A model generated the notes under the pieces. That model had not been told where the DNA came from. It saw nothing but the letters and a program-made list of their open reading frames with translations, and made no database searches. 64,000 bases of DNA from Pyruvatibacter mobilis (GTDB lineage Bacteria > Pseudomonadota > Alphaproteobacteria > CGMCC-115125): assembly GCF_012848855.1 (NCBI RefSeq), contig NZ_CP051630.1, forward strand, positions 3,079,501 to 3,143,500, in the 5' to 3' direction. Made by a program: the position numbers and the translations under genes. Below are positions 12,136 through 23,424 of the stretch, one piece after another; position 1 is the stretch's first letter, and each line of letters starts with the position of its first letter.

Positions 12136-13137
12136 ATGAAGGCAGTGTTGTGTAAGGAATATGGGCCGCCGGACAGCCTGGTGATCGAGGATGTCGCCTC
12201 GCCGGAGCCCGGCGAAGGCCAGGTGCGCATCGCCGTCAAGGCGGCTGCCGTCAACTTCCCCGACGTGCTGATCATCGAGAACAAGTACCAGTTCAAGCCG
12301 CCGCTACCGTTCTCGCCGGGCGGCGAAGTGGCCGGTGTGGTCGACAAGGTCGGCCCCGGCGTCAAGAACCTCAAGGAAGGCGACCGGGTGATCGGGTCCT
12401 GCGGCTGGGGCGGCTACGCCCAGGAGCTGGTGCTTGAGGAAGCCCGCTGCACGCCTTTCCCGGACGACATGGACTTCGTGTCCGCCTCTGCCTTCCTGAT
12501 GACCTATGGCACCTCCCATCACGCGCTGAAGGACCGCGCGCAGCTCAAGCCGGGCGAGACCCTGCTGGTGCTGGGGGCTGCCGGCGGCGTCGGCCTGGCG
12601 GCTGTTGAGCTCGGCAAGGCCATGGGTGCCCGCGTCATTGCCGCAGCCTCCACCGAGGACAAGGTGCAGGTCGCCAAGGATCACGGGGCCGATGACGGTT
12701 TCGTCTATCCCTCCGGCGAGATGTCGCGGGATGAGCAGAAGGCCTTCTCCGACAAGATCAAGGAGCTGACCGGCGGCCAGGGTGCTGATGTGGTCTATGA
12801 CCCGGTCGGCGGCAGCTATTCCGAGCCGGCGCTGCGCGCCACCAACTGGGAAGGCCGCTTCCTTGTGGTCGGCTTTGCGTCCGGTCCGATCCCGAAGATC
12901 CCGCTCAACCTGGCGCTGCTCAAGGGCTGCCAGATTGTCGGCGTGTTCTGGGGCGCGTTCACCGCGCGCGAGCCGGAGCGCAACAAGGACAATCTCAACG
13001 AGCTGATGACCTGGTTCCGCGACGGCAAGATCAAGCCGCATGTGTCCAAGACCTATGCGCTTGAGGATGCGGCCTCCGCCCTCAAGGACATGGCCGCGCG
13101 CAAGGTGAAGGGTAAGATTGTCCTCACCACTGAATAG
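12136..13137 (+). CDS. NADPH:quinone oxidoreductase family (zinc-independent MDR)
   Basis: A 333-residue medium-chain dehydrogenase/reductase. It has a GroES-like N-terminal domain with no zinc-binding cysteine set and a Rossmann domain with LGAAGGVGL at 146-154. The family reduces quinones or other enones with NADPH. The ATG at 12136 follows GGGAGAG. The next gene starts 1 bp after the stop, which suggests cotranscription. Confidence 0.9.
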   Translation: MKAVLCKEYGPPDSLVIEDVASPEPGEGQVRIAVKAAAVNFPDVLIIENKYQFKPPLPFSPGGEVAGVVDKVGPGVKNLKEGDRVIGSCGWGGYAQELVLEEARCTPFPDDMDFVSASAFLMTYGTSHHALKDRAQLKPGETLLVLGAAGGVGLAAVELGKAMGARVIAAASTEDKVQVAKDHGADDGFVYPSGEMSRDEQKAFSDKIKELTGGQGADVVYDPVGGSYSEPALRATNWEGRFLVVGFASGPIPKIPLNLALLKGCQIVGVFWGAFTAREPERNKDNLNELMTWFRDGKIKPHVSKTYALEDAASALKDMAARKVKGKIVLTTE

Positions 13138-13138
13138 G

Positions 13139-13939
13139 ATGGATGACCGGTATGGTCGCGAGTGGCGGCGCGGAGCAATCCGCGCCGTCCTGCTTGCGGC
13201 CGTGCTGATCCTCGCCGTCTTCGGCTTCCTGGTCTATGTGCTGCTGGCCTCCGGCGAGGCGGAGTACTGGGCCGGGGAGATCGCCGAGTTCGAGCGGCTG
13301 GACGTGTCCAATCCGCCAGAGGCGGGGCAGATCGTCTTTGCCGGGGGCGGCACCATCCGCAAATGGGAGACGCTCGCCCGCGATCTCGCGCCGCTGCCGG
13401 TGCTCAATCGCGGCTTCGGCGGCGCCCATGTGTCCCATGTGGCCGCCTATGCCCCGCGCATCATCCTGCCCTATGGGCCGCGGGCGGTGGTCATCTCCGC
13501 CGGGGCGGATGATCTGGCCGATGTCGGCGGCAAGCCGGCGGATGAGGTCGAAGCGGATGTGGCGGCGCTCATAAGCATCCTGCGTCCGGCAGGCCTCGGC
13601 CCTGACGACGACCCGCAGGTCTATGTCCTGTCGATCCCGCCGCAGCCCATGCGCAAGGCGCGCTGGGCGGCATTTGCCCAGGCCAACACGCAATTGTCCG
13701 CCATGGCGGCGGCAACGCCGGGGGTGCATTTCATCGATATCTCGACCCCAATGCTGACGGCGGACGGCCGCATCGATGAAAGCCTGTTCCGCTGGGATGG
13801 GCTGACCTTCAACGACGCCGGCTACGACCTGATCGGCCAGCTGGTGCGGGCGCGGCTGGCGAGGGATCTTGAGACCTTTACCCGCGCGGAGCCGCCGCTT
13901 CCCGCCGGTCCGGCCCTGCCAGTGGCCCCCGCGCCCTGA
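13139..13939 (+). CDS. Membrane-anchored SGNH-fold protein lacking catalytic residues
   Basis: A 266-residue protein with one N-terminal membrane helix (about 14-37) and a periplasmic SGNH-hydrolase-like domain. The family landmarks are recognisable but altered: the nucleophile block reads GGGTIRKW (69-76) where family members have GSSSIRxW; block II RGFGG (91-95) is intact; block III reads GADD (122-125) instead of GxND; block V reads DGLT (220-223) instead of DGLH. Serine, asparagine and histidine are thus all missing, so it is probably a non-catalytic binding protein. It follows the oxidoreductase stop by 1 bp. Confidence 0.75.
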   Translation: MDDRYGREWRRGAIRAVLLAAVLILAVFGFLVYVLLASGEAEYWAGEIAEFERLDVSNPPEAGQIVFAGGGTIRKWETLARDLAPLPVLNRGFGGAHVSHVAAYAPRIILPYGPRAVVISAGADDLADVGGKPADEVEADVAALISILRPAGLGPDDDPQVYVLSIPPQPMRKARWAAFAQANTQLSAMAAATPGVHFIDISTPMLTADGRIDESLFRWDGLTFNDAGYDLIGQLVRARLARDLETFTRAEPPLPAGPALPVAPAP

Positions 13940-22737: not shown

Positions 22738-23424
22738 TCAGGAAGAGGTGTCCTTGCGCGCATGCTCGACAAGCTGGACGGCATAGGGGGTGATCGCCTC
22801 CACGATCACCTGCACACCGTCCGCATTGGGATGGATGCCGTCCGGCTGGTTGAGCGCAGCGTCGGCGGCCACGCCTTCCAGGAAGAAGGGATAGAATAGC
22901 ACGCCGTAGCGGCTCGCAAGGTCGGGATAGATGGCGGCGAATTCCGCGCCATACTCCTCGCCGAGATTGGGCGGTGCCAGCATGCCGGTCAGCAGCACCG
23001 GCAGGTCGCGGGCCGCCAGCGCCTCCAGAATGGCGGTCAGGTTGTTGCGGGTCTGCTGCGGGTCGAAGCCGCGCAGGGCATCGTTGGAGCCAAGCTCGAC
23101 GATCACCGCGTCCACGTCGTCATCGATCGACCAGTCCAGCCGCGCCAGGCCGCCGGCGGAGGTGTCACCGGAAACCCCGGCATTTTCCACCTCAACGTCC
23201 AGCCCCTTGGCCTCAAGCGCGGCCTGCAGCTGAGGCACGAAGCCTTCCGCCTGCTCAAGGCCATAGCCCGCCGTGAGGCTGGTGCCGAGCGCCACCACCT
23301 TGACCTTGCCGTCCTCCGCGCGGGCGGGCGCTGCGAGTGAAAAGGCCAGCAAAGCTGCCGCCGCGAGAAGCGCTGCCAGGGGCTGCATGATCTGGGCGGG
23401 CATGAGGCGCGTATTCTTCAGCAT
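22738..23424 (-). CDS. tesA: Arylesterase/lysophospholipase TesA family (SGNH)
   Basis: A 228-residue periplasmic GDSL esterase with a signal peptide (residues 1-36, ending APARA). All SGNH catalytic residues are present: S49 in GTSL, G84-type glycine in block II, N114 in GSND, and D195/H198 in DGIH. TesA hydrolyses acyl thioesters and aryl esters. GAGGAT lies just before the ATG at 23424, so this start was preferred over the Met at 23436. It is divergent from an ABC exporter, a common proteobacterial arrangement with ybbA/ybbP. Confidence 0.93.
   Translation of the reverse strand: MLKNTRLMPAQIMQPLAALLAAAALLAFSLAAPARAEDGKVKVVALGTSLTAGYGLEQAEGFVPQLQAALEAKGLDVEVENAGVSGDTSAGGLARLDWSIDDDVDAVIVELGSNDALRGFDPQQTRNNLTAILEALAARDLPVLLTGMLAPPNLGEEYGAEFAAIYPDLASRYGVLFYPFFLEGVAADAALNQPDGIHPNADGVQVIVEAITPYAVQLVEHARKDTSS

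Follow-up and report, generated by a model that had tools for sequence, protein, structure and literature searches.

The gene at positions 13139 to 13939 of the window (the whole 64,000-nucleotide stretch of Pyruvatibacter mobilis DNA analysed here) encodes a membrane-anchored protein with an SGNH hydrolase fold, in which the nucleophilic serine, the oxyanion asparagine and the catalytic histidine have all been replaced. The loss is common to its orthologues in two families, which form a single clade under purifying selection, and constraint has visibly moved from the catalytic site to the transmembrane (TM) segment. The features discussed below, all on the + strand, are as follows.

12136–13137, +: PIG3-like NAD(P)H quinone oxidoreductase (QOR), directly upstream (TIGR02824, 229.7 bits, below the cut-off of 296.8)
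13139–13939, +: membrane-anchored SGNH-fold pseudoenzyme, 266 aa (open reading frame, PF13472, AlphaFold2, Foldseek, VIA-align)
13178–13249, +: TM helix, approximately residues 14–37 (modelled helix 3–37; hydrophobic 19-mer in 38 of 39 clade rows)
13220–13252, +: near-invariant exoplasmic half of the TM helix, residues 28–38, FGFLVYVLLAS (pairwise identity)
13253–13318, +: conserved juxtamembrane collar, residues 39–60, ending in the invariant SNPP (alignment)
13343–13354, +: block I, GGGT (69–72), nucleophile Ser replaced by Gly71 (alignments)
13406–13426, +: block II, NRGFGGA (90–96), oxyanion Gly95 kept (alignments)
13502–13513, +: block III, GADD (122–125), oxyanion Asn replaced by Asp124 (alignments)
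13790–13807, +: block V, RWDGLT (218–223), Asp220 kept, catalytic His replaced by Thr223 (alignments)

Fold and catalytic residues

The reading frame opens with the ATG at 13139 and closes with the last codon at 13936 and a TGA stop at 13937–13939. Its 266-residue product matches PF13472 (Lipase_GDSL_2) with 52 bits, above the curated cut-off of 32.9, and had no match in a search of NCBIfam; of three orthologues compared with the PF13472 cut-off, L004 and L005 lay narrowly above it and L006 gave no match. An AlphaFold2 model built from 50 sequences (mean pLDDT 90.9, pTM 0.84) consists of a long helix at residues 3–37, a second helix at 41–57 and then the SGNH domain. Using VIA-align, the best structural match was the sialic acid esterase 7pzg (Z 25.3, rmsd 2.2 over 192 residues), and TesA (4jgg) was superposed with a Z of 18.0; Foldseek and VIA-align place sialic acid esterases and PAF acetylhydrolase nearest, such that sugar-ester esterases are among the closest folds. 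The first-pass annotation, which had recognized SGNH landmarks and a membrane anchor in the bare sequence and had proposed superposition of a predicted structure on SGNH esterases, is borne out in both respects, the anchor by the modelled helix and the hydrophobic 19-mer of its orthologues. The arginine-rich N-terminus suggests an N-in topology, which would place the SGNH domain in the periplasm.

In alignments with SGNH proteins of known structure, the Ser of 'GNS' is matched by Gly71, the Asn of 'GTND' by Asp124 and the His of 'DGxH' by Thr223, whereby the protein departs from the SGNH catalytic definition at three of the five residues compared. RGFGG at 91–95, DGLT at 220–223 and FNDAGY at 224–229 are further landmarks. 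Counted along the G-x-S pattern, the nucleophile lies two residues beyond the glycine (the second Ser of GSSS); position 71 was named by the G-x-S register of TesA, which we take to apply here, and the active-type member L052 has position 71 as its nucleophile. The TesA-like protein encoded at 22738–23424, earlier put forward as an intact control within the window, indeed reads GTSL, SGDTS, GSND and DGIH by eye and scores 99.6 bits against PF13472.

Similar replacements were observed throughout the clade. Among 39 distinct rows, position 71 is Arg in 30, Asp in five, Gly in three and Ser in one; position 124 is Ala in 22, Glu in ten, Asp in five and Ser in two, and never Asn; and position 223 is Thr in 19, Ser in 18 and Ala in two, and never His, while Gly95 is kept in all 39 and Asp220 in 38. 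All three residues are gone together in 38 of the 39 distinct genes, the sole member with Ser71 (L086) still being devoid of Asn and His. By comparison, 36 aligned relatives outside the clade (made up of class-level hits, two second copies and 27 non-clade loci out of the 77 from the relatives search) have Asn124, Gly95, Asp220 and His223 without exception and Ser71 in 35 cases (Ala in L088). An initial inspection of the full set of 80 loci from the relatives search gave a similar picture: the clade members L004–L006 lacked all three residues, and the remaining loci had active-type motifs wherever the alignment was readable, the unreadable ones being L008, which proved active-type when reread separately, and parts of L074 and L076. 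The combined absence of Ser, Asn and His described in the first-pass annotation thus holds for the window protein and, as its suggested survey of orthologues brings out, for the clade at large. Since the orthologues share it, the triple loss is not due to chance or sequencing error, and these alignments give good support to the disappearance of the canonical triad.

As a separate observation, the outside relative L088 (G055), with Ala at the nucleophile position and intact Asn and His, may represent an independent partial loss.

A different site could have replaced the old one, the acidic residues Asp125, Asp128, Asp220 and, in the majority of orthologues, Asp72, together with Arg218 and His100, forming a new metal-dependent or acid/base centre. 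Asp128, Arg218 and Trp219 hardly vary within the clade and are specific to it, His100 occurs in 39/39 clade members versus 18/36 active relatives, and Asp72 is present in 34 of the 39 rows. However, the window gene itself has Thr72, L119 has neither Asp220 nor Asp128, and positions 71, 124 and 223 vary in a manner unlike an active-site core. Moreover, a search across the clade for an invariant Ser or Cys as substitute catalytic residue in the domain after the collar found none. We consider such a re-tooled enzyme very unlikely, and infer that the protein is catalytically inactive.

Arg74, Trp76, Arg91, Gly92–95, Asp125 and Asn183 are conserved in the clade and in active relatives alike, and given these residues a binding cleft, or altered chemistry within it, may persist. 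The first-pass annotation suggested a periplasmic ligand-binding protein whose retained cleft would bind an acylated or glycan ligand without turnover. The conserved RGFGG, Arg74, Trp76, Gly122, Asp125 and P-x-P-x-R stretch are in line with this proposal, as is the likeness to sugar-ester esterases, but positions 71, 97 and 124, which lie in or close to the old active site, vary, and the best conserved segment of the protein, the exoplasmic half of its TM helix, is left unexplained. We regard this ligand-binding reading as rather unlikely.

Distribution, descent and selection

Within its own family, the orthologue was found in three of four genomes, the one without it being 81% complete; a search at the order level comprises the same four genomes. 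In a second family (Rhodobiaceae/Parvibaculaceae-type, in the order of G012), 36 of 40 genomes encode it, the family names being inferred from matches to the Rhodobiaceae-labelled records L004 and L006, which coincide in the tree with the hits from G387 and G388. The four second-family genomes without the gene are G385, G386, G392 (70% complete) and G411 (57% complete). A profile search for diverged copies found none in G002, G385, G392 and G411, and only one weak match, elsewhere in the genome, in G386 (E 1.2e-8). As G002, G392 and G411 are also without the ∼80%-identical QOR, the pseudoenzyme region is probably unassembled there. In genus g277 (G385 and G386) the QOR is kept and the pseudoenzyme gene absent; judging from these two genomes, the gene is dispensable in that genus.

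In a class-wide sample of 385 genomes, 14 genomes gave a match, three from the window's own family, four from family f10 and seven from outside, the last with active-type motifs (L088 with Ala71). G390 and G391 carry a second, active-type copy beside the pseudoenzyme (L133, 4083–4742, and L134, 3249–3971, respectively), with Ser, Asn and His intact, which provides an internal control.

In a tree computed without the motif columns, all 42 pseudoenzyme rows were placed on one side of one branch with an SH-aLRT of 99, as obtained from 78 rows (75 different) by a quick method giving SH-aLRT but no bootstrap values, and with several long branches. Mapped on this tree the loss requires one change, a value as low as this being reached in 0 of 500 shuffles. 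Clade membership coincides with the absence of His223; removal of the duplicates L102, L103 and L130 from the 42 rows leaves the 39 used for counts, and L135–L137 were left out as repeats of L088–L090. This topology suggests that Ser, Asn and His were lost once, in the common ancestor of the clade.

Pairwise dN/dS (Nei–Gojobori) could be estimated for 15 of the 16 pairs chosen and ranged from 0.04 to 0.25; the other pair was saturated. Although the absence of three catalytic residues would also fit a decaying pseudogene, these ratios are not those of decay, the frames are open in two families and the operon position is conserved, leaving this explanation with practically no chance. By the same substitution measure the gene is maintained as a protein, and the loss of its catalytic residues is conserved by descent under purifying selection, as is expected of a pseudoenzyme.

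Membrane anchor, gene neighbourhood and proposed role

The exoplasmic half of the TM helix carries the motif F-x-FL-x-YVLLAS and the collar the motif YW...FER-D-SNPP. Residues 28, 30, 31 and 35 of the helix and 44, 53, 57 and 58 of the collar are invariant in the clade but not in active relatives. For residues 28–38, mean pairwise identity was 0.82 among 20 clade representatives versus 0.09 among active relatives, and the cytoplasmic half (14–27) of the same 20 reached 0.30; between the two families, identity over residues 28–38 is 0.86, the highest value of 14 zones. Synonymous change in this segment (pS 0.63) is like that elsewhere in the gene (0.55–0.80), indicating that the constraint acts on the protein.

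To match the depth of divergence, pairs were compared at 35–45% and 45–55% domain identity, giving 0.62 and 0.61 for the clade versus 0.20 and 0.22 for active relatives, i.e. an anchor half about three times more conserved at equal domain divergence, in a rough control that relied on automatic segment choice. Of 125 rows read, this control used the 38 clade rows and 23 active rows that contain such a hydrophobic stretch; many of the active ones resemble cleavable signal peptides. The 48-residue anchor module matched the orthologue alone in seven of eight genomes, and it found no match in G386, which is without the pseudoenzyme gene. Overall, the new constraint, strongest in the exoplasmic half and collar, suggests a membrane partner no less than it does a periplasmic ligand.

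Conservation of the segment might instead stem from processing, if the Ala-Ser-Gly/Ser sequence before the collar were a signal peptidase site; by eye, Ala37-Ser38-Gly39 does fit an A-x-G/S site. Yet the hydrophobic stretch extends over ∼24 residues and is modelled as one long helix, and the N-termini of the active relatives are not conserved. Signal peptides are normally not conserved in sequence. Cleavage is, in our judgement, quite unlikely to be the cause.

The stop codon of the QOR gene and the start of the pseudoenzyme gene are separated by a single nucleotide, and a QOR (74–100% identical) lies directly upstream on the same strand in 38/38 testable genes (46 stretches representing 39 distinct genes, of which L132 ends before its neighbour). 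The QOR is thus probably the operon mate of the pseudoenzyme; it is predicted to be a soluble cytosolic enzyme. Downstream, DUF1232 and SDR genes are common to most of the larger regions and EamA to several. In L124 the pseudoenzyme gene is followed by a RidA-type and then a serine-hydrolase-type gene, and in G386 the serine-hydrolase-type gene adjoins the QOR. The interval 6730–8912 of L124, from the second-family genome G145, contains RidA-type, beta-lactamase-fold and 4HBT thioesterase genes between the pseudoenzyme and EamA; these are absent at the corresponding place in the window.

Taken together, we consider it fairly likely that the protein is a non-catalytic subunit, attached to an inner-membrane partner through its TM helix and collar, with the SGNH domain above. 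According to this model, the protein descends from a periplasm-facing, inner-membrane-anchored acyl-esterase whose fold outlived the loss of Ser, Asn and His in the clade ancestor; the exoplasmic half and collar would dock on a specific inner-membrane partner and so hold the SGNH domain over it, where the domain would serve as scaffold, regulator or ligand-sensing lid. Several points stand against this reading: no partner was found, the linked QOR being predicted to be soluble and cytosolic; genus g277 (G385, G386) keeps the QOR without the gene; and the cleft residues common to the clade and its active relatives leave room for binding or altered chemistry. Anchor conservation could instead serve self-association or signal-peptide processing. 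More tentatively, the protein might serve solely as a component of an undescribed complex in the inner membrane of these Alphaproteobacteria, in which its SGNH domain would act as periplasmic lid or sensor for a QOR-linked process, catalysis having been discarded once and selection having moved from the active site to the docking surface formed by the exoplasmic half and collar.

An MBOAT protein, considered as linked partner by analogy to PatA/PatB or DltB/DltD, was dropped as PF03062 is not encoded near the pseudoenzyme gene. The only PF03062 match of the same genome lies at C1:301128, beside two other SGNH-type genes, and MBOAT proteins were present in 10/10 genomes tested, including G386, which is without the pseudoenzyme. 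The cluster of two SGNH-type genes and MBOAT (G000, C1:298342–302160, L149), also encountered in L152 (G420), looks like a separate envelope acylation system. Elsewhere in G000, two loci of equal PF13472 score and equal strand (C1:2833–3408 and C1:3325096–3325671) lie near both contig ends, by either recent duplication or assembly overlap.

Comparison with known systems

PF13472 hydrolases such as the Phocaeicola vulgatus sialic acid esterase (7pzg) and PAF acetylhydrolase Ib (1wab) have the same fold as residues 36–245 of the window protein, including the block II Gly and the block V Asp, but they differ from it in that the window protein has Ser, Asn and His replaced and a conserved TM anchor. 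An esterase/lipase annotation based on PF13472 is probably wrong for this clade. The active homologues (from Myxococcota, SAR86, Competibacteraceae and others, and the second copies of G390 and G391), the nearest of which are 35–45% identical to the window protein, likewise often have an N-terminal hydrophobic segment; they retain Ser, Asn and His, and their anchor sequence is not conserved. The clade offers a clean case, with two families, one apparent loss event, and active relatives and second copies in two genomes as controls.

The OSK domain of Oskar has its catalytic residues missing and is not known to carry a membrane anchor. It is SGNH-like and of bacterial type but serves a different function (PMC7250577), in an insect germ-plasm protein unlike the one described here. 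A plant survey counts dead GDSL members (PMC4757993). In Arabidopsis, the GDSL-family protein ERMO3/MVP1/GOLD36 is reported to be apparently a pseudoenzyme, its catalytic-centre position being occupied by Gly; a G59S mutant was made and interacting proteins were found by coimmunoprecipitation (PMC3498303); being a plant endomembrane protein, it differs from the window protein, and common ancestry of the loss is not implied. The available portion of a review on SGNH proteins gives no bacterial pseudoenzyme case (PMC9487903), and within limited literature coverage no report on this clade was found, bacterial SGNH pseudoenzymes being hardly present.

Finally, PatA/PatB and DltB/DltD are membrane-bound MBOAT–SGNH pairs in which the SGNH domain works next to an inner-membrane partner, as proposed for the window protein; however, they use a catalytic Ser, whereas the window protein has none and no linked MBOAT (PMC12148441). 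The acyl-shuttle motif FXYXXF of DltX described in the same source bears a loose likeness to the TM motif F-x-F-x-x-Y, to which we give no weight as order and place differ. In the present clade, the move of constraint from catalytic site to TM segment is visible, and the role of a dead esterase becomes testable by pull-down through a defined motif.
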